Of a DNA stretch of 64,000 bases, positions 4,988-64,000 are shown piece by piece. Source of the stretch: Apteryx mantelli (Eukaryota; Chordata; Aves; Apterygiformes; Apterygidae); contig NC_089979.1 in the NCBI RefSeq assembly GCF_036417845.1, positions 23,811,958 to 23,875,957 of the forward strand. Direction: 5' to 3'. The notes under the pieces were generated by a model. The model did no database searches. It was given only the letters and a program-made list of their open reading frames with translations, and was not told the origin of the DNA. Position 1 is the stretch's first letter; every line of letters starts with the position of its first letter. A program made the position numbers and the translations under genes.

Positions 4988-5213
4988 GTTGAAAGTGTGT
5001 GGAAAGCATGGGCTATGATATTGAGCGTTTTGTTGGCTACGTTAATGAAGGACTTTTATGCTCCATCTGCCGAGATGTGTTAGAAGATCCATTACAGGCT
5101 CCATGTGAGCATGCTTTCTGTACTGCTTGTATACATGGATGGCTCATTCATCACAGTAACTGCCCTGAAGACAGACAAACGCTTGATGTATCTTTGCTAC
5201 GACCTCTTTACAG
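4988..5213 (+). CDS. RING gene exon: 5' UTR end plus codons 1-69
   Basis: The acceptor TTAATAG precedes 20 nt of 5' UTR, then the ATG at 5008. The exon encodes the whole RING domain (residues 18-55) and ends with the first two bases of the codon for Arg69 before GTATAC. The upstream non-coding exon was not identified. Confidence 0.9.
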
Positions 5214-6293
5214 GTATACAACCATCACTCTATGTTGAAATTGTATAAATATAGGATTTCTCAACTTTGCCTGCAGAGCTTTATCTCTTCTCATTTACTG
5301 TCACTCAGATTATCCTTATGCAATATGCCTATGGCAGAAACTGATCACTTGGATGAGAACATTAACATTGGATGAGAACACTAACATTTTCTATTTATTC
5401 TAACTGACTTTTGAGGTATTAAAGATTTCAGAATGGATAGAACACTTAGTTTGCTCTCCACCTTTTTATGTTGTGAGTGTTGATTGTAGATGTCTTTCTG
5501 GATATTATTCTGAATCTCTTTTACAGCACCAAAAGACTTTTCCATCTCTTTTAGAAAAACCAGGCAATGCAGCTCTTGACAGCAACAATCACTAAACGTT
5601 ATATATCTTTAGTTTTTCTGCTCAGCCATACTACAGTATCTTTGTAGTTGGGTTTGTAATGAATAGGTTCCTGTAGATATGAATAAGACTTCTTGCTTTC
5701 AAATCCCTTTTAAAAAAAGGTCTTTAGCCATAGGAGTATCTGTGTTGATCCTTGTCACACAAAGCAGCCTGTTTTTGCAAGTCACTTTTCTGCAATTCCT
5801 GCTATTGCCAGCACACACAGTTTTATCAGGAGATACTGCTGGGTCTTTAGCCCCTGTGTTTTCTAATCTTGCTCAAGCAAATTAACAAATTATGTTATGA
5901 TTAATTTAATTCCTGTTACTGAGAGTTTTAACTCTGGTATTTCCATTATTTTTTTCAGTGATGAGATCATACTGTATGGAAAATTGGAGTGTAATGTGGA
6001 CAAAATCCCAAAGTTTAATTTATACTTTGTTTTGTCTGTGCTTATTGTACTCAATTTAGTTTGGCATGTTTGGAAACAAAAAACTTAAATGGTGAATGAC
6101 TATTGATCTGTAGCCTAAGTGTTTATTATTGTTAATATCTGCTGAGCTAATTAAAGGATACAGTTAAAACTTTATTCAGGAATTCATTTGCATAGTTAAT
6201 TTTGGAGAGTAACTTTTTCCATTAATGTTGCTTCTCTCATTTTAAGCCAACGTGGTCTTTCATGTTTTCAATATGGTCACTTGAATGCTAAAA

Positions 6294-6343
<50 letters not shown>

Positions 6344-9300
6344 AAATCAGTTTTCTTCATGGAAATTAAAATTCCACTTTCTCTTCCTGAAATTGGAAAA
6401 TGCAGATTTTCAATAATGTATTCTTCATCCACGATTTGATTTTTTTTTTTTTTCATATAGATATATGAAAAATGATTTAAACCGTCTTCAGCTACATTGC
6501 AAAAACAGAGAGTATGGCTGTGAAATGGTTTGTTCTCTAGAGTCTATAGACAGGCATGAAAGAGAATGTGAATACAGTCAGATACTTTGCTCCAATGCTG
6601 GTGAGTAGTGTTCAAAGAAGTTGAATTGTCTTTATTCAGAGAACATGTATTTGTCATCTTTTGTCCAACAGAATGGCAAAAATGGCCATTCATTTGCTTC
6701 TGGGTTGAACTCCTCACGATCTTCTGAATGCTAGACCAAAATGAGCCAAGAAAATATTCTTTTGGCAGAAACAAGTAGGTACTACCCCTGGTGCCTCTCT
6801 GTATGGACATGATCTCTTGTTCATGAGTGCTACTGTTTAGCAAAGATACAAAAAGAGCTAAACAGAAAGTCAAAGCATTAGTACTCCTTGCAGCAATCTT
6901 TGTACAAAATTTATTCCTAATTTGTGGCAATCCTGATCACGAGCAACAATTTCTTATCCAAAAACTAACTAAATTGAATCAGAAAGATCGACTTCAAATT
7001 TGTCAAAATGTAGTAGTGCATTTCTTTTGCTTTTTGTCAAGTTATGAGTGTGTCTTTCAGCTTTGACTGTTTATTGTTGTGACTGAATCAATGTAATAGC
7101 ATCTACAGAAGTCACATGCTTATAGGTCATTATTTATTTTTAAAACAGCCAGTTGCCTGGGTGTGTATCCTTCATGCGCAGTCACTCACTTTCTCTCAGT
7201 TTTAACAAAAACCTATCTTGTATGTGAGAATTTTTTTGAACTAAAGTTTTGCCAAAATTGATATGTTCATGTCTTTATTTTCAACAAACCTGCATTTCCT
7301 GAGGAAGAAACATACCTTTAAAGTTTCCCAGTCAGCTTTATTCCAAAGGCTATGTTACCAGGCAGATATAATTTCTAATAAATGATACAAAGGGCATAGT
7401 CAAGTCTGCCATTGTAATTAATAATGAGAAGATTAAGGTGCTAGTATTGCTCTACTGGAAGTTAACATTTCTCTCAGCAGTAAGTGACTGTTGTAGATGC
7501 TTTAAATTAACCAGTTTTACTTTCTACCAAAACAGATTAAGTAGCATTTATACAGTTACTACACATTAGCTCTTATGTATCATATTCTGGGGACTGAGGA
7601 TTCTTAAATATCTTGAACTCTTTCTCAAAAGTACGTCAGAGTATTTTCCAAAGTACCTCAATTACTATCATAATATTTATTAGTAAATCTCCATTAGAGA
7701 GCTGTCTTTTGTAATTTTCTGGAATAGTTTGTTGACAAGTTTCATTGTACTATTGTTTCTTTCAGTTTTCTTACATCTCTTTTATCTTTAAATGAAATGC
7801 AAGCTAAAAATATATACTACAGCAAACATTGTCTAAGATTAAAAGACTACAAACTTCAAAGTTTAGTGTGTTAAACATGGCAACAGTTTATGTGGTGTTC
7901 TTTTTTGGTTCTCCATATTTTATTTTTAGTCACTATGGATTTGTAAAGTTTATATCCTATAATTTTTGTGTAAATGCTTCTGGTTTTGCAACTGGTTCTT
8001 CAAGGGTCATAAATAAATGTTCTTGACTATTTATGTGGTCTAGTATGTCATGCTCAAGATCAATGGTCAGGAAAACAAGGTTCCATTCCAGCTCACCCTC
8101 TGGTTTACTATGTGTCCTTACACTTTTTTTCTATTTTTGAGGTCTACTTTTTTTTTTTTTTTTAAACACATTTTCATTCTTCTTCAGTTCAAATCATTGC
8201 AGTCTGTGGTAGAAGTGCAGGCAAGCTGCTATAGTCTCAGCTTGACATCAGCGTTGTCATTACTGAAGTTGCACTAATGCTAGACTAGTGACAGAATAAT
8301 TTACAGAAAATACCTACCACCGGTAAGACTCTTAGAGTCTGTATTATTACTAGTATGTGTGTTTTAATGATCTCAACCCATATTCTAAAGAAATTACTCT
8401 TTTCATTGCTTTACCTTGAGCTAAGCAACTGTCAATCTGTTATTGTGGCTTGCTTGCTTGAGTGTTTTTGTTTGGAATTATTTAAAATGCTTTTGTTGTA
8501 AATGGCTGGCTTATCTTACTGTTCCTTGTTCAGGTTGTACAGTTCAGATTGAACGACGTAACTTAGATGGTCATTTGGCAGTCTGTGAATATCGGAGCCG
8601 TGAATGCCCCAATGGTTGTGGTTACACCATTCTCAGCGCAGAAGACACACAGCATAATTGTGTAGCAGAGCTAAGAACTGAGCTAGAACTACTTCGGTAC
8701 AAATCTTCTGTTCCTTTGATGTTTGTTTTAATCTGGGCCTAAAGTCACCGCGTAGAGAGTTTCAAATACTAGCACTGGATTCTGGTATCTGTTAAATAAC
8801 CCATTAACCAGTTGATGTTAATGGGCCAGAGTATTTTTATATGTCAATGCAGTCTTTAAACTCACTGTTTTGACTTTTTTGCTATTGTTCTTTTGTCCGA
8901 GTCATTACAAATCTTAAAAGATCATTGGCTGCAGTTCGACAAAATTGTGAACTGACAACATAAAACGGCAAAATACCTTCCAGGAACTAAACTGAAGCTA
9001 ACAAACAATTTTATTTTTGCCTTTGTCTGGTATGGAGGCCGAGTGGCATTATTTAATAATTACTTTTTTTTTTTTTAACTCTTGAAAATAAAAATCTCCA
9101 ATCATTTTGGCAGTTAAAGGCAGATACTGGCTGGTAGAGAGTCTGTACTGTAGTCTCTCTCTACTAGATTCTCCCTCTGAGAATCCAGTTTTAAATTTTG
9201 ATTAAAATCATGGTAGGTAGTGAATATGCTGGTTCTTTCCAACTTCCTCTTTTTCTTCTTATATATGTTACTCTAGTTTTTCCTTTCCATAATGTTCCAG

Positions 9301-11395
9301 TTGGACTGTTTTTCCCATGTTCCTTCTTGTTTCTCTCTTTTAACTTGTTCTTTAAGTCCTGTGCTCTTGAACATTGCTGTGAAGTCAGACTCGGATCTTT
9401 TTTTAAGTGCATTGGGACACAAAGGAATTCCGCTAATAAAGATGCTAGCTTGCCTAGTTTCTAAACTCGAAAGGTTAACGTAGTAACAGTTAGTTTTTGG
9501 CTATGAGCAAGTTATAATAGTTTAGTGTATCCTATTATTTAATGTCCACCATAAAAGTGACAAGATTACATGTTTACAGATACTATAATACTCACAGTAC
9601 TCACAGTCAAGATAAAGACTACTTGTGCTTAGTAATATTAACCAAGTGTATACTATAGGTAAAAGGCAATAGATCAGTTAAGGCTCAACATATATGATCC
9701 TGAGCTCTTAGAATTTTTTAAGAAATATGATAGGATTGTCCCTTATATATGTTTTCCATTGTTGTTGCATTTGGGCACCAAACCCTCTTTTTTGATGCTA
9801 GTATTTTTTTGACTGGGGCATTCTGGTTGGGAAAAAGGAGGATACTGAATATTGTATGATGAGCAGCAAGAATGAGAGGTGTCCTGTAGAGTGCAGTGGG
9901 AATTGGTTCAGGCTGTTTGGCTGCAAGAAATCTTTCTGGAATTTGAAAATTTATTTTTGCCATATTTACAAGATTGAAAAGGATAAATGAACTTTTTTTA
10001 GGTCAGAAATGATCTGCAGAGTGGAGGAGGCAAAGCATGAGATGGAGTCAAGATTAGATTCACAGCGAAGACATATGGTCCAGAAAGAGAGTATTCTGCA
10101 AAATGAAATTGAAGAACTAAAGGTAAATATGATCATTTTCTTCTCTCTTTTTTTTTTCCTCCTAATAGTTTTTCTTTTTTTGCTCTTCCCAGTAGAAGTC
10201 TCCATTTTTTATTCTGTGCAAAGAAACTTGCATTTCTTATTACATTTCATAAATGTAGAATTTCATAGAGATAAGCGTTCCCATTAACTGTGGGAAACAG
10301 GACAGCTGCTAGCACAGTGCTTTGCCTAGGCTGATGAGTTCTGTTGAGAAGCAGGCTGAGTGCTGCACTAGTGCAGTTTATCTTCTTCAAATTCATTTGG
10401 AGCTCGCCTGGATAGCCTGGACCGCATTGTTCTGTGTACACATAACGTGTCGGTAAATCAGTCTGAAACTCATTTTCTGTGCCTAAACATAGAGTGTGTT
10501 TCACAGACTGGATGTAGTTAAAAATCCAGCTCCTGTTTTAGTGCTGTCCAAAGTAGCTTAATCCAATACTGACACAGAAGCCCTACTGTAGACAGTGATA
10601 TTTACAGTGTGGTTCAACTGTGGTGAAAGGGTTGGAGACTTGCACAGTAAACTTAATATAGCCTTTGCTTATTATTTGATTATTTTTGTCATTCGTCCAG
10701 TTCTTATTATATCACAGAATAAGTAATGATTTTTAAAGCCCAAAGCACTTGAGATATTGTGTATGTTACATTTTTCTTATGAGATTTGGTTTTAAATCCT
10801 TGAAGAATGTATCTGAACATAACCAAAACCTTATTTTGGTTGGGGTCTTGAAATACAAAATTTAAGCAGCAACCAGGTAAATCTACTGCCAATATTACAC
10901 TTTATAGAAAACTTCTTGTACTTCTTGGGAAAACTCTATTGGAATCTTTGAAACAAGACCATCTCAGAAGGTGAATGCTGGATTGTGTCTCACCTTGTTT
11001 ACATTTGTTCTGCTATCAAAAAACACGCTGGATAATTTCAGTGTTGCCTATTCTTTAGAATCCATTGCCCTATATGCATGGCCATTTCACCTTCATATCA
11101 GCATCACTAGAAAAGAGTTTGGTTTTGTTTCTTGCAGTAGTTTCTATTTGCTTTTCAGAGTCAGATGTCACGCATGATGTCAGATGTACGGTCTTTGATG
11201 GCTGCAGAGAGACAGCATCGTCAAGAGCTGGAGCAGGCAGAGCTAGAGAAGCGGGAATTAATGGAGCTTCTGAAAGGCCTACAGAAAGACTGTCGATTAA
11301 ACACTACAGAAGGAAACAAGAAGTCAACAAACTTCCGCCCTCTGACACGACTAGAAAGTGTAAAACGAAAACCTAGGGAAGTTACGGTTATCTAA
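5008..11395 (+). CDS. RING/TRAF-type zinc finger E3 ubiquitin ligase, NRDP1/RNF151-like
   Basis: Five coding exons (5008-5213, 6461-6600, 8534-8696, 10002-10122, 11159-11395) join in frame to 867 nt, or 288 residues. All four introns are GT-AG (1247, 1933, 1305 and 1036 bp). The ATG has a strong context (A at -3, G at +4), and an in-frame TGA at 4990-4992 in the same exon fixes the start. The protein opens MGYDIERF, like RNF41/NRDP1. The RING ligands are C18, C21, C33, H35, C38, C41 and C52, with Asp55 at the eighth position, as in NRDP1. Three Cys/His units follow: C82/C89/H101/C105, C112/C117/H129/C133 and C140/C144/H156/C158. A charged coiled coil runs from about 159 to 250, then a basic tail ending VTVI. 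The family transfers ubiquitin to substrates with E2 enzymes; the substrate here is unknown. I see no NRDP1-type C-terminal substrate domain. It is clearly family-level NRDP1/RNF151-like, but I cannot name the orthologue. Confidence 0.9.
5350..5387. repeat. 19-bp tandem duplication, two copies
   Basis: Two adjacent 19-bp units (5350-5368 and 5369-5387) differ at a single base (ATTAACAT versus ACTAACAT). They lie in intron 1 of the RING coding region and look like a recent replication-slippage duplication. Confidence 0.8.
6301..6344. repeat. (TA)n microsatellite
   Basis: About 20 TA dinucleotides, interrupted once by an extra A (ATAAAT). It lies 117 bp before the acceptor of the second RING-gene coding exon. 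Confidence 0.92.
6461..6600 (+). CDS. RING gene exon, residues 69-116
   Basis: A T-rich tract and CATATAG acceptor open the exon, which ends GCTG before GTGAGT. It encodes the linker and the first TRAF-type zinc unit (C82, C89, H101, C105) plus C112 of the second. Phase is 2 in and 1 out. Confidence 0.9.
8534..8696 (+). CDS. RING gene exon, residues 116-170
   Basis: The acceptor is TTGTTCAG and the donor is GTACAA, a weaker but legal site. It encodes the rest of the second zinc unit (C117, H129, C133), the third (C140, C144, H156, C158), and the start of the coiled coil (AELRTELELLR). Confidence 0.88.
10002..10122 (+). CDS. RING gene exon, residues 170-210
   Basis: The acceptor is TTTTTTTAG and the donor GTAAAT. 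It is entirely heptad-like and rich in Glu, Lys, Arg and Gln (for example EEAKHEMESRL), so it encodes coiled coil. It ends on a codon boundary. Confidence 0.88.
11159..11395 (+). CDS. RING gene terminal coding exon, residues 211-288
   Basis: The acceptor is TGCTTTTCAG followed by AGTCAG. A second AG two bases later would shift into another open frame, but only the first keeps the coiled coil (ERQHRQELEQAELEKREL). The basic C-terminus ends before TAA at 11393-11395. Confidence 0.88.
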   Translation, partial: SQMSRMMSDVRSLMAAERQHRQELEQAELEKRELMELLKGLQKDCRLNTTEGNKKSTNFRPLTRLESVKRKPREVTVI

Positions 11396-14300
11396 ATAGA
11401 AGTAAGCTCAAAAACATTTTCTTTAATTTCTTTGTCTGGCAAATGTTTCTGCTTTCTATGAATGAATGGTAAACTTCATATCATTTCTGATTTACTTGTT
11501 TTCTTTTTAAAACTAAATTACTACTTTTTCCCTCTTGGGCTATAGAAACTAATGAGGGGAATTTTCTCCTATGGAACATTGGACTTTAAAACCTGTAATT
11601 TTAAAAGACATTTTTAGCTAATGTTTTCATAAGATGGGGGTGAGAGGCTTGATTCATAGCTCTTCAGTGCATCATTTACAGGATTCCTTCAAGCCTGGAA
11701 ATTAGAACTTTTTAAAATAAATGATACATAAAGTTTTTCTCCTTCCTGGTCCTTTAGAGTGCATTTAAGTTTTTATAATCAGTTATGACATTTGGGATGT
11801 AGTTTAATTTTAGGAAAAGTCAGTAATAGAAAGTAAGAGTTTTACTTTAGAGCTGCTCTAATTTCCCAGGCTGATACACATTTGATAAGAGAATAATACC
11901 AAAGATCAAGGTAATGGTGTCATCTAAAATCTTTTATACAGGTGTGTGCGTAACTTGAAGGAGTTTGCAGGAGTGGATCTTGCTTTGTATTCAGAAATTT
12001 GGGGAGGCTGTATTTGAGCAGCACGGCTAGAGAGCTGTTGATGTTCATTCCCATACCTCTGTCACTTTGGTAATATTTCTATTACCTAGTCAGTAATAAT
12101 GCATGTTGAGTTCTGCATGTTTTCACAATTCACAACGCTATTTCCTTGATGTGAAAATATCGGCTATTTCTACAGGGACCTTTGAGCTGAAGACCAACCT
12201 ATGCAGTACTCAATATCTTTAAAGCATATATGAATATCTTAGTATCTTTTTCTTTTGGCAGGTTTAAGACTACTTGAACATCAGTATCCACAGTGGACAA
12301 ACATTTGCACAGTCATATGGACTTCGGACTTTCTTATTAGTACTCAAGCATACTACACAAGAGCTAGGATTTTATAATAGACCCACAAATCCTGAAACAA
12401 GGGGGCATTTGCCTGTAAGGACTGCAGTATGCTTGAGAAATTTGTACAGTTCAAAGAGTTTTCTCTAAACTTCTCACACAGCCTGTTTGTATTGTTTTCA
12501 GTGCTATAATTGAGCCATATTCTGTCCTCTGTTACAGCTCTTCAGTGGAGTAACTAGGGGGAAACCTGGCCTCCTGTTTACCGAATGTGCTAAATCAGTT
12601 CTGAACTTTCAGGAAAACAGTATGCAGGTGCAACAGTCTCAATAAGCTAGTTTTCTAGTTTAGGAAGCAAATTCACTACTGTGTGTGCCTTGCTGCCACT
12701 CAGATCAAAGCTTTCGTGGCTAACAACATAACCAAAGAGAGAGGCAGCAACCTGCCTTAGCACATACACTACATTATAAAGGTGTGTGGTCAGAGCTCTC
12801 TTAATTAAATTTCAGGCATTAATAAATCCTTCTAATTCTCTTTTTTCTTTAGTGCCACTGAAAGGAAACGTACACATGTTCAGCCCTTGTGTGCACTTAG
12901 AAATTGACTGAAATAACTCTCCTGTAAAGGTTTTTTTCTGAAAGAAAATCTTCATAGGAAGAGCTATTTCCAAATGTTTGTTTTTTAGTTCACACTTAAA
13001 TTCTAGATGAAATTACAATTGTTGACAGTATTTAGGTCATTACAGCAGTATGACCCAACTCATGACATAGCACATCTCGTAAGCAGCCATATCTAACAAT
13101 GTGAGACAGTAAAATAGTAGCTAAGATTTAACCTTCATTCACACCAAGCATTCAGTGGTCACTACACATACATCAGTGGACACATTAAAGTTGTAGTTAG
13201 AACCTAAGAATGCTTTTATTATCTTGTGCTCTAAATAAGCGAGCTGTTAGTGTTTGTGGTCTTTGTGGTTCTGTTTCAGCATTCACACTAATTTTGAAGC
13301 TGCTTGGCAATTCCAGATTTCATGCTATTAGAATCAGTGTTTCTTCAGGATGTTTTTCTGTGTACTGTAACTGTGAGGTTCTGTGCTGTAACTTTATCTA
13401 CCTTGCTTAAAGTGAAAGAAGAAAATTCCTTCAAAATCCTATATCCTTCATCCTATCAAGATGAGCTGGATCATCCTTCCTGAATTGGAGGGCAGTAATG
13501 ATCACCTTATCTTTTACATTCTGACCACAAAAAGCACATTATTAGCTCCATGCTTTCTGCCTAATTAGATCTCTGCATTTGTTTTTAGTTATAAATAGGA
13601 GGGTGACATTCCTAATTCTAGTGCAGAAAATAGGGTTTATTTAATATTTACTTAGCATTTGGTCTGCTGTCTGTATCCTAAGGGGACAGACATAAAACTC
13701 CACAAGAAAACAGCTCCTCAGTGTAAAGTAAGCACTTTCTGCTGTGCAGTCTATGTAGCTCCTAGTTGCCAGCTCTGGAGTTTGAACTTTCAGTGTTCAA
13801 AAATGGAAATGCTCTGGGCCCACCTGCAGCTGGAATGACCTGTCAGCTTGGGTTTCCCTTAGCAGAAAGAAAGCACTCACAGAGATATTTTAAATGGAGG
13901 TATATGGAGGTATATTAGCTAATAACACCAGATCTCTCCAGTTACACTGGAAAATCATTCAAATTTGAGCTTAATCAAATTCCTTAGTGATGATAACTGA
14001 TGCACTTAAGACTTTCTTCTACTAATGAACCACTCACACACGGGGTTGTATATGCTTGAACATAGTCATCATTTTACCTATTTCTTAAACTAGAGTGAAA
14101 TTAAATAGCCCATTATGTTAGAATTTTATCTAAATTTAGCTTTTCCAATCTTATGTATTACAACTTTTAATAACAGCTGGCAGAAGCAAAGGATTTTTTT
14201 TTTCAGATAGTCTGTTAGTCCTTTTCATAAAAACTAACGGTCCAAATATCATAGAAGACTTAAAGTAAGTGCAGATGTTCACTTGGAAATGCATAATTCC

Positions 14301-30523: not shown

Positions 30524-33500
30524 CAGACATGGTTGGTTGGCAACATTAAGCAGTATGTACTGGACTGAGAACTCACTCAAGTTCACAAAGGATAAATGAT
30601 ACTTCTGAAGTTAAGTATTTTTCTCCTGATAAACCTACTGCACAGAACAAGGGTGAATTTATAGTTCATTAAAAAAAATCTTTGCAACAGAAAACAAATA
30701 CCTTTGCAGATCTTCTACAATAAGATCCAACACAGTCCTCATGATAAGAAGGGCAGTAGGTGAAGCCAAATCACACAACTGAACACAAATACGTCTCAAC
30801 ATGTGCTGAATAGGCTGGCAAGACGAACCAGAGAAAGATCGAACTATCTCTTGTAGCAGCTTCGCTTGAACATGAAGGTGCATGCTCCACAGCTTCCTGG
30901 TGTTGAGTGCCACTGAAATATCATGTGGCTCGATGACCTGCAGGAATAGAAGAATAGAAGGGTTTTGCTTTCAACATCTATCATAAAACCTGAATTCTAC
31001 CACAAGGCATAAATAAATACAAAATACTGTGTTCATCAAAAACATGCAATGCCATTTTCATTAACATCACTGAATGACAAGGCTGAATTTGATCACAAAA
31101 TAACAAATTAAACAAGTAATTCCAACAAATTAGGTATTCCTTTGGAAACACCTGTAGTCACACATCTTTTATGTCGACTTATTTGTTAAAGATAACAAAT
31201 TCAAGATTCATGACAAAAGAAGGGAGAGTCTTAATACAGCAGGAGTTCAGCATTCAGTGTTAAATTCAAAGGCTTCAGAATCAATCATTTAAGTAATACA
31301 ATGAAATTCTAGAGAACTTGATAAGGGTCAAAAGAACAACATATAACCATTAATTTAAAAAGATGTTCCAAGTAAGAACAGTTTTGTTTCTGATGAAGAA
31401 AGAAATGCATCTCCAACCAATCTGTCCGAACACAACTGCTTTATAGAAACTTTAATTCATCCTTTCATAAATCTGTTTTTTCCACAAGTAAGAATGGTCT
31501 AAAGGGTTATGCATAATTACAAGTCTTCAAAAACTAAATAAATCTGAATTATACCTGAGTTGTCTGCATGGGTAGTGGAAGAGGCAACAATTCTGAAAGC
31601 AGTATAAGTCCAGAGAAAAAGCCTTCAGGAATTCTCAAAATTGAAGAGAGAACTTCTTTCAGCATTAAAGACCAAGTATTATTCGCCAAAGTTTCTTCTG
31701 AAATGGTAAGTTTTTCATTAACACCCTGTGTAAAAGTCAGTAAGATATCAACAATGTCATTCTGAATTTTTTGTTCATCGCTGTCTAAGCGGCCTGAGAG
31801 GGGAATAGAACACAGGAGCATGTGTAAGGAGACAAGCGCTGACGGAACCCGCATGTCTTTGAATTCAAAAGATCCACCCCTCAGCAGTTCCGTGAGCATT
31901 GTTTTGAGGAGAGTAAGTGTACAGCGGGCCATAGAAATAGTAGTAACTCTGTGAAGCGTGGTGCCCATGTTGACATGGAGTCGCCAAGGCTGAATTAGTA
32001 TGCTGTTCAGCTTCTGTAGAACCCGAATGAAGGTGTCCATTCCTTCAGAGGAAAAGAGCTGAATAACTGCAAGATTCCATTTAAGATCTTTCTGTTGACC
32101 TGTGCAGAAAAGAAATAACATTTCTGTACATCAAATTTCTCTTGGGCAATCACAGTTACGCTTCAGACATGGTTAAGAAAGCTGAGATTTCTGTGTTAAG
32201 TGGTACAAATACATCTGTCATACCTTCTACCAGAGGTGGCGGACATGCAACGTGGCAAAGAACACGAAGTGCAGTAGGAAGACCAACTCCATCTGGGGTC
32301 ATCAAACTGTCAATATTCTTAAAACAAAACAAAAAATGAACCTGTATTACAAGAGAGAACTTTATGACAAATATTTCACTAGCTTAGTTTTCTGAACTGG
32401 AATAAATATATAGCTCGGCCATCAGCTCCTCAATCACCAAGACACCTAATTACACAGATGAGCAAATCTAACACAACATAGACAGAACATGGATCTTAGT
32501 GCCACTCATTTCCCACTTTTTGAAAAAGCAGGTCCACTCTGCACTAATTCTCATCACATTCTGATAATCTGCAGCTATACAATGAGCTTTAATAGACATG
32601 GGAACCAACGTATCAAAAACTCCACCAGAACAAAGGGCTTGAAAATTAGTTATGGACCAAGGGCTATTATTGTTTAAAATATGTATTTACATCCATTTAT
32701 CATCCACTGACTAACACGTGCCTCTATGGAAGAGAATGGAGTCTTCAAGAGTCTTCAAGACTCTTTTCCAGAAGGCAGTTAGCCATCTAACAGAATCAAA
32801 AAAAAAATCAGCCTTTATGTTTCAGCTATCTCCAATATGACCACTTTCTTACATTCTTTACTCCCAATAAAAGTATGTTTCAGATGGATTTTCAAGCAAA
32901 AAGGGAAAGTAACAGCTAATGCTAAAACTGTGTTTCAGTGGAGTCCCCTGAAAGGGGAGAATTATCCTCTGGGAGACAGTTTCAGGAGAAACCAGTGGGA
33001 AGCCCCTTTCAGCTTGTCTATTGAAAAAGTAAGTACTCTCTATTTGGCCTTGGGAAGTAACTGAAGCTGCTAGATGGACAACTGCTGTCTGCTCATTACA
33101 GCTGAAAATGGAGCTTGTCTTGTTAATTCCCAAGAACGGGCAGCTGACCACTCAAGCACCTATGCTGACCCCTCTTCAGACTGTTAATACGCATCCCCAT
33201 GCCATAAGTTCCCAACGCACAGGTCCAGGGTACAGGTTTCTATAGTCCAGAGGAACATCTTTATACTCACTGGTTGCATTTACAGAAGTAGTGTACTAAC
33301 AGTTTCACCTCACTTTATGTATAGCCATGACAATATGCAAACTAGTAAGGAAAAAAGAAAAGACTTACAATAGCAAGTCTTTGAGCAAAGATTCAAAAGA
33401 AAGAAGTAGCTACGTAGTTTGGGAACAAGGCCGTGCATAAAACAACATGATCTACCTTATTCTTAACAGGATTTCTCTTTTTTTTTTTCCTCGTTACCAG

Positions 33501-39500: not shown

Positions 39501-42500
39501 CTTGGTTGGCTCTGTCAAGTCCCGTCAAGTCTTGGTCCTGCTCTGGCTCAGTGTGATTAGGAAGAGAAGGAGTGTTCTCTGCTAATTGATCAACCACCTT
39601 TTTAATATCTGACAGAATCTCATAAAAGTGACATTTCTGGAGAATTGCAGAACCAGCAGTAACTACTCTCACAGTCTGATCTAACAGTATGAGTTCCAGG
39701 AGTTTCTGATAACCGCTTTTTTCATGTACATCTACACCACCTCTTAGAAACATTTCCATTCCCTCAGTCATACTAATAACACTATCCAAAGCTTTAAAAG
39801 CATTAAGTTTAAGGGAGGATGATACATGATCTGCAAACAACAGTTCAAATAACACATTAATAACTCCTGCCTGCAAGAGTGCCATTATTCCTTGAGTCCC
39901 ACATTCTGCTAATGACGACACCAGTTTTGTCCCAGCCTTCAGCTGTCGGACATTCAAAGCAATGGGCTGTTTGAGAGCTACCTGAAGGCTTAATGCTTGC
40001 AGGGTCCAGTCTACTAGCTGGGTAATATAGCCTTGCTTTGTGTCTTTCATTTGCAGGTAGCTCAATCCTTTTACTATTAAACTCGGAACTTCTTCTAATG
40101 CAGTGACCCACTTTGCACCCCTTTCTTCTTGATACAATTCTAACAGTTCAGTTAACTTCACTGAGACTTCCACTGCCCCTGAATTTTCTTTTTCCGGGTC
40201 TTGGTCCTTTATTTTACCAATTTCATTCTCAAATACAGTCTTGTAAGGGCAGCTGAAGTACAAAAGAGGTCCAAGCTCCCTTTCAAAAGGCTCATATGTC
40301 ACAGGAGGCACAGATGCCAAATCCTCAGGAGTATATTCAATATCAAAGCTTGGATATTTAAATGTTTCACGTTCCAGATCAGCAATTCCATCCTCATCAC
40401 TTGAGATTTGCTCATATCCATCATCTCCTAAGAAAAAGATTCATTTATGAAATAAAATCAGTTATGGATAACTGTGTTCATAAATGCTGAGAACCTGCTG
40501 AAACTAAATTAAAAAAAAAAACAGTTTAGAAAACAATCATACATTAAATGTACAGAAAGCTTTCTCTTTTCAGCTGTAAGTGAAACCCCCTGTTAACAGA
40601 CTTTTTATATAAAAACTGAGACATTTAAAGGTATGTATAAAACCAAAAGTCCATTTAACTGGGATATATAACAAGAGCATTGTCTCATTTTCTTTCTAGG
40701 ATATATCTATCATAAAACTTGTAGTTAGATTTGCACTGGCATGGGTGGGAACTTTAGATAATTCAAGAAAATTACTGACATTCTTACATAAAGATTAACG
40801 CAAATAATACACATTCTTGGTGAGTCAAACAATTTTACTTAATTTTTAATTAAGAAATCGTTTGTTCCACAGCCTTCCACTTTTTCTTAACAAATCAAAT
40901 AACAAGGCTCATTCTCACCTATAAAAGTTGCATCTATTTTATAGAAAGTAACAGGGAGATTTACTATAAAGGAATAAATACTCCACAGCAAAATACTGTT
41001 CTCCTTCAGAGATGTCAGATACAGCATGCAACAGTGCAGCGACCAAGGCAAAATGAGACCTAGCTCTCTTCACTCCTAGTCATCATAACAATACAGCCAT
41101 AAAAATTTTATAAACTGATTGTTTTTTCTTTTATTTTTTACAAGATTACTTACCTTCACCTTCTTCTTCCTCTTCACCCTCTTCTTCTTCATCTTCTTCC
41201 TCCTCTTCCTCTTCCTCCTCAGGAATACTCTCTACTGTATGCCCATCATCATCTTCCTCATCCTCCTCCTCCTCAACATCCACATCCTCTTCTTCATCCT
41301 CTCCTTCTTCTGGTTGATCTTCTTCTACTTCTCCCTCATCAGAATATTGACTTTCTTGATGAATGGATGTCCGATCAGGAGAAATGGGCTCAAAGTAATC
41401 CTCCCTATGGTCAACATCATCTTCTTTTTCCCCAACCACTAAAAAAAGAAAAATACAAATAAGAGTAATGCTCTGAAATCTAATGCTCAATGATAGGTCT
41501 TATGATACTGCATTATGCAGTGGAGATACAGAAAGAACATCTTGAGGAAAATTTCAGATGATTTGACCGAACACTAACAATAATTACTTAGTTCAGTAAA
41601 ACTATAGGAATTATGTAAACAGTTCTTAGTACTTTTAACCCATATGGAGCCCTGAGAACTCAGTAGTTAATGGGAACAGAGGGATGGAGGAGGATAATGA
41701 ATACCAAAGTCAACAGAAATTTTGTATAAAATATGATCAAGCAGCGTATTGGTCAATAGCTGATATTCTCAAATATACTAACTCTTAAATGGATACAACT
41801 TAACATATCCAACAGGTTTTCTTACAAATCTCTTTCCTAAGATTGAATCTGTCCAGCAGCAGTAAAAGCAGACAGGAAATGTACCACAAGGCAGGAACAC
41901 AGAATTCTACTTCCACTAAGCAGTGTTGTGCAGCAGATAAAACAGTCCGCTCTCATTGTACCTGACACTGGCATAGGTTCATCCTCATCATCATCAGGAG
42001 GAGGGGGGCCTGGCGGTGTCCTTGGTCCCCTAGGTTGTGGTCTTGGAGGGCTGCCATTGAATTGGTCTTCTTTCTCCCCATCAACTGTATTTATTGTGAA
42101 AATAAAAATTGCATTTAATGGAATCACAGGAATAGAAATGGTACCTTTTAGTATTTCAGTGCTACTTTTCATTAGAAAAACCCTTTATTTCTCAGCTGTA
42201 TTTCAAAAAAGTAGTATCCGAAGCAGTTTTCTGAAATCATTTCTGACGTAAACAAGAATAGCAAGGTTATTAACACTACAGATGTTTGTTAATATAACAC
42301 TGAGTTAAAATTAAGGTGGATAATTGCCATTTTTAGCTTGAACAATATCTAGCAATATTGTAACTCTACCAGTAATAACTGAAGTTACTTAAAAAAAGAT
42401 TAAATTTTGATCTACAAGTGATTTTTTACAGTATAGAGTATTCACATCTCTGCAGCATGACAGCTCTACCTTGAACAAGACAGTTCTAATTTTAAGTCTA

Positions 42501-52279: not shown

Positions 52280-64000
<11,721 letters not shown>

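Follow-up and report, generated by a model that had tools for sequence, protein, structure and literature searches.

The RAD54B-VIRMA interval and the gene within it

The window analyzed here is a stretch of 64,000 nucleotides of the Apteryx mantelli genome (C2:23811958-23875957). Near its start, five plus-strand exons join into an 867-nt reading frame, open throughout, that encodes a protein of 288 residues and its stop codon. All four introns start with GT and end with AG, and they interrupt the frame at codon/phase 69/2, 116/1, 170/2, and 210/0. Exon 1 (5008..5213) encodes the N-terminus and a RING of the C3HC3D type (residues 18-56, 5059..5175, delimited by the Pfam match and the ligand positions), and exon 2 (6461..6600) encodes a first zinc unit (residues 82-105) and the start of a second. 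Exon 3 (8534..8696) completes the second unit (residues 112-133) and continues with a third (residues 140-158) and the start of a helical tail, which extends through exon 4 (10002..10122), where a coiled coil is probable, into exon 5 (11159..11395), where it is followed by a basic C-terminus ending in VTVI and the stop codon TAA. The span 5008..11395 comprises the coding part only. The ATG exon probably begins with a short 5′ non-coding part on the same strand (4988..5007), and a possible acceptor (TTTTAATAG) immediately before position 4988 suggests an additional non-coding exon upstream. The first AATAAA 3′ of the stop codon (11716..11721, plus strand) is a candidate poly-A signal. Rfam yielded no matches across the window at gathering thresholds.

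Before the start of the window and on the minus strand lie the first coding exon of RAD54B (C2:23806452-23806589) and FSBP (C2:23789892-23790251), both located with provisional human sequences as queries. On the other side of the RING gene (referred to below as the window gene), the N-terminal exon of VIRMA (41149..41499, minus strand) was recognized by its Pfam VIR_N domain (3.3e-10), the single match among five open frames of the window tested against Pfam, and the first exons of ESRP1 (52280..56209, plus strand) by four matches to a provisional human ESRP1 sequence. The window gene is therefore arranged tail to tail with VIRMA and head-to-head with RAD54B, from which it diverges. A CpG island with a GC content of 0.66-0.77 and an observed/expected ratio of 0.92-1.17 separates it from RAD54B exon 1; this island spans window coordinates of roughly -3000 to -1500, which puts it some 6.5 to 8 kb 5′ of the ATG. 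Because the possible acceptor before position 4988 suggests an upstream non-coding exon, a divergent promoter common to RAD54B and the window gene is likely, and transcription from this shared island would probably be broad.

Domain content and predicted ligase activity

Pfam matched the RING (PF13923, 1.1e-9, residues 18-53) and a zf-TRAF domain (PF02176, 4.2e-7, residues 101-155) above their cut-offs, and a Sina zinc finger under its cut-off. After the RING, three CCHC-like zinc units can be recognized, with Cys or His at residues 82/89/101/105, 112/117/129/133, and 140/144/156/158. The zinc ligands of the RING itself are complete (C18, C21, C33, H35, C38, C41, C52, and D55, the last replacing the usual final Cys), and I20, W45, P53, and R56 are all present, the first three of which we take to be E2 contacts and the fourth the linchpin. 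With its full zinc ligands and E2-contact residues, the protein has the makeup of a RING-type E3, and it is most likely an active C3HC3D RING-type ubiquitin ligase. Its RING would bind the E2 through I20, W45, P53, and linchpin R56, and, by analogy with TRAF6, the three TRAF-type zinc units may serve for spacing and for contacts.

Neither proline nor glycine occurs in residues 146-249. The strongest heptad contrast within the tail, at residue 197, was reached by 16 of 500 shuffles; as this contrast is moderate, we regard a coiled coil as likely, though not strongly so. The helical tail may self-associate, such that the ligase works as a dimer, and it may also hold the substrate, standing in for the C-terminal domain of NRDP1. 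That domain (PF08941) is absent among the 19 Pfam families listed for the protein at E<=1, and PDZ families are likewise absent among those listed at this threshold, which sets the protein apart from PDZRN proteins. The earlier note on this DNA, which had described an intact five-exon gene for a protein of 288 residues with a RING, a triple zinc unit, and a coiled coil, and without the NRDP1 substrate domain, is thus borne out in its account of the gene and its domains, with the coiled coil retained at the lower strength given above.

The PDB relatives of the protein include LNX (1.7e-10) and TRAF6 (2.3e-10) as top matches, both of which have an Asp as the last RING ligand and zinc fingers thereafter; in place of the plain helical tail, they presumably have PDZ or TRAF-C domains. 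The C-terminal VTVI resembles a class I PDZ ligand, a likeness to which we give little weight. We take the C-terminus of human RNF151 to lack a PDZ-ligand-like ending, unlike the VTVI of the window protein and the QSVL of mouse RNF151. The mouse ending is read from a printed primer (PMC3460789).

The overall layout, in which a RING is followed by three TRAF-type zinc units and no USP8_interact domain is present, is that of RNF151. Mouse RNF151 is reported to autoubiquitinate, forming polyubiquitin chains, and to localize to the nucleus of CHO cells (PMC3460789). Dysbindin is the only RNF151 partner entered in one review table, where it carries a question mark (PMC8947704). The gene is described as testis-specific in both mouse and human, and knock-out male mice as fertile (PMC9277888).

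The gene annotated as RNF151 in chicken

In chicken, a gene annotated as RNF151 (XM_015282944.4) is placed at chr2:126,031,779-126,041,077 of GRCg6a, 125 kb beyond CDH17, and it was measured in liver by RNA-seq and RT-qPCR in a QTL study of 2026 (PMC12841298). The forward qPCR primer printed there matches exon 5 of the window gene at 11204..11223 (plus strand) with 1 mismatch in 20, compared with a best of 4 mismatches among 200 base-shuffled windows. The reverse primer matches at 11258..11277 (plus strand) with 4 mismatches in 20, which by itself is at chance level, as the best shuffles do equally well and the primer in the opposite orientation has 3 mismatches at 31877. We count this second match because it follows the forward primer in the correct order, strand, and spacing, and lies in the same exon and frame. 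Five of the 40 primer bases differ between chicken and Apteryx, amounting to three silent codon changes and one residue change, K249R. On this order and spacing, and on the likeness of neighborhood through CDH17, which the human 8q deletion list gives together with RAD54B and VIRMA (PMC6570965), we take the chicken gene as the orthologue of the window gene, with the comparison covering 40 chicken bases only. The neighborhood argument goes by CDH17, as chicken positions for RAD54B and VIRMA are absent from the QTL paper (PMC12841298). The window gene is thus already known, under the name RNF151 in chicken, and the RAD54B/FSBP-VIRMA interval is best explained as the ordinary place in birds of the gene so annotated.

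The same comparison bears on whether the gene model could be dead or artefactual. The PDB relatives LNX and TRAF6, together with a chicken primer match at 1 mismatch in 20, indicate that the gene is not a product of chance, and its frame is open over five exons with canonical splice sites everywhere. Further, its differences from chicken are mostly silent, and the chicken gene gives a liver signal by both RNA-seq and RT-qPCR (PMC12841298). We consider a dead gene or an artefact scarcely credible.

Bird RNF151 also appears in the loon genome paper, where it has a printed omega of 0.0127 with a sequence length of 129 and a faster penguin branch (0.10), a value that corresponds to strong constraint (PMC5921391). 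The RNF151 of that paper is presumably the window gene. In the open-licence PMC literature on RNF151, as far as its text was available, we found no treatment of the place or orthology of the bird gene, which does not imply its absence from print.

Kinship and the two chromosomal slots

By identity over the RING and zinc units, the window protein is closer to RNF41 (NRDP1; 46%, 64/138) than to a provisional RNF151 sequence (36%, 58/162); its identity to PDZRN3 is 34%. Residues common to one relative only number 18 for RNF41, 10 for RNF151 (provisional letters), and 6 for PDZRN3, and RNF41 also has an MGYD N-terminal start like that of the window protein. This identity, the C3HC3D RING found in both, and AU tests that do not reject a grouping with RNF41 (p 0.34, 0.19, and 0.43) would be consistent with the window gene having arisen from RNF41, either by a lineage-specific duplication or as a copy that diverged. 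However, RNF41 is intact in the same genome (contig C33, 317 residues, 97% identical to a provisional human RNF41 sequence), so any split between the two would be far older than birds. None of its four introns (30/0, 121/2, 166/0, and 201/2) coincides in place and phase with those of the window gene, which argues that the latter is not a recent copy. RNF41 also has one zinc unit fewer, and it carries PF08941, whose one match in the genome lies within it and which the window protein does not have. Introns, zinc units, and domain content accordingly led us to reject a recent duplicate or retrocopy of RNF41, and we regard derivation of the window gene from RNF41 as very improbable.

We searched the Apteryx genome (1.504 Gb, 408 contigs) for further copies. 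With the window protein as query, 135 of 203 candidates were scored and at least 17 matched at E<=0.01. These correspond to the five window exons, PDZRN3, PDZRN4, two of RNF41, three LNX-like, and five RING-only matches of about 40-57 residues. With a provisional human RNF151 sequence, 150 of 239 candidates were scored and at least 50 matched at E<=0.1; those listed include the window gene, PDZRN3, PDZRN4, RNF41, TRAF6, and LNX-like genes, which were named from their sequence or their position. Another five hits of this query that reach past its residue 90 were read, and the RNF151 zinc units were found in none of them; we take these hits to be two TOPORS-type RINGs, one SIAH, and two TRIM proteins. 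All other hits of this query stop no later than its residue 86. Among the matches identified, there was no second RNF151-like gene. A hit on contig C4 with internal stops was considered as a broken RNF151-like copy and rejected, as it consists of TRAF6 exons read across introns; we assign the name TRAF6 from its likeness to TRAF6 in the PDB. A search with the zf-TRAF family returned 14 matches, with the window gene and PDZRN3 among these, under the cut-off. Viral and genome contig collections scanned with the window protein contained no relative, as expected for an animal gene.

The best trees join the window gene to mammalian RNF151 (provisional letters), with supports of 76/83 in a seven-row tree without outgroups, 53/78 in an eight-row tree with outgroups, and 42/67 in a ten-row tree with outgroups that includes mouse RNF151. 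Among the quartet columns, five pair the window gene with RNF151, four with RNF41, and one with PDZRN3. A grouping with PDZRN, like that with RNF41, is not rejected by AU tests (p 0.15 and 0.17). PDZRN3 and PDZRN4 resemble the window gene in having a RING and TRAF-type zinc units, all three of which are present in PDZRN3, but the corresponding region of PDZRN3 lies within one open exon, and both proteins presumably have PDZ domains after the zinc units, unlike the window protein. The trees thus lean weakly to RNF151, which shares with the window gene a RING, three TRAF-type zinc units that are spaced alike, and the lack of a USP8-interacting domain, and differs from it in a C3HC4 RING (provisional letters), in its diverged sequence, and in its chromosomal place.

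The mammalian places can be read from printed gene lists. In the list printed for a human 8q deletion, CDH17, GEM, RAD54B, FSBP, and KIAA1429 (VIRMA) are given and no RING gene (PMC6570965). RNF151 instead appears among the genes of a human chromosome 16 duplication, alongside NDUFB10, RPS2, and TBL3 (PMC7272322). In dog it is again listed beside NDUFB10 and TBL3 (PMC7774950), and the gene order in goat is NDUFB10, RNF151, TBL3 (PMC9902602). The Apteryx genome has NDUFB10 (from C16:20295340), RPS2 (about 20297210-20300410, minus strand), and TBL3 (20313105-20314833, by its Utp13 domain) together in the same way. Within C16:20280000-20319999 (40000 bases, no N), queries with RNF151, RNF41, and the window protein gave nothing better than E 0.16. 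This search has power, since the same queries recover the window gene when run on the window's first 40 kb (at 1e-10 with RNF151 and 9e-21 with RNF41). The window gene, on C2, is therefore outside the NDUFB10-TBL3 slot that marks mammalian RNF151, and the two slots are filled reciprocally: human RAD54B-VIRMA holds no RING gene in the printed list, and kiwi NDUFB10-TBL3 holds no RNF151-like match.

These results affect several proposals of the earlier note. Its statement that no RING gene lies between RAD54B/FSBP and VIRMA in human agrees with the printed deletion list (PMC6570965). Its suggestion that the gene was lost in mammals finds no support in that form, as mammals carry an RNF151 beside NDUFB10 and TBL3, where the kiwi slot is empty. 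The other option that it offered, a lineage-specific duplicate, is unlikely at least as a recent event, given the absence of a close second copy among the matches identified and of any intron position common with RNF41. In the trees, where a place within ordinary RNF41 or RNF151 was to count against its proposal, the gene leans weakly toward RNF151, and the AU tests reject no rival tested.

We think it fairly probable that mammalian RNF151, testis-specific and located in the NDUFB10-TBL3 slot, is the same gene as the window gene, relocated. For relocation speak the best trees and the lack of a second RNF151-like gene among the matches identified in the kiwi genome; against it stand the closer identity to RNF41, the residues common to one relative, and the C3HC3D RING. 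Alternatively, the RAD54B-VIRMA gene and mammalian RNF151 may be two old and different genes of the NRDP1/PDZRN group that were reciprocally lost, the former by mammals and the latter by birds, in which case the chicken name would be a best-match label. Such hidden paralogy would fit the two slots, the higher identity to RNF41, the D55 RING, and groupings that AU tests do not separate, as well as expression in chicken liver compared with testis specificity in mouse and human (PMC12841298, PMC9277888). It would require two losses, however, RNF151 is still the partner in the best trees, both with and without outgroups, and fast evolution after a move would account for the low identity too. We hold this alternative to be possible but doubtful, and our confidence is divided in this way because the RNF151 letters are provisional and the branches are long. 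Equally tentative is the idea of an ancient vertebrate ligase that has no mammalian counterpart, is broadly expressed from the RAD54B CpG island, and possibly has a PDZ partner via VTVI.

The window gene is an ordinary one, and the evolutionary question is modest. It does have a bearing on how the bird gene is interpreted. In 2026, chicken RNF151 was named as a candidate of second rank for a QTL for muscle weight, and the authors drew on data for the testis-specific mammalian gene (PMC12841298). The transfer of data from mammalian RNF151 needs care if birds have another gene here, or if theirs represents the state of this gene prior to its testis specificity. RNF151 is also listed in a chicken influenza meta-analysis (PMC8953847).

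RING matches elsewhere in the genome

When the Apteryx mantelli genome was searched with human RNF151 (E<=0.1, 150 of 239 candidates scored), the matches listed included nine RING matches at C9:30392990-30480045, on another contig, all within long open frames of 605-784 residues and with about 8 kb in six of the eight gaps between them. This stretch appears to hold several RING genes arranged in tandem. Exon 1 of PDZRN4 (C1:190138463-190138783) retains a RING and the first zinc unit; where PDZRN3 has later zinc units, PDZRN4 instead has a P/G-rich stretch.

The two ends of the RING gene

A CpG island (C2:23808958-23810457; window coordinates about -3000 to -1500) separates RAD54B exon 1 (minus strand) from the RING gene (plus strand), and is possibly a divergent promoter shared by both. 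The RING protein ends in VTVI (window 11381-11392, plus strand), which has the shape of a class I PDZ ligand. PDZ domains are present in its relatives PDZRN and LNX. Mouse RNF151 ends in QSVL, going by a printed primer (PMC3460789).

The VIRMA exon

In the VIRMA exon at window 41149-41499 (minus strand), a long run of acidic residues adjoins the VIR_N match.
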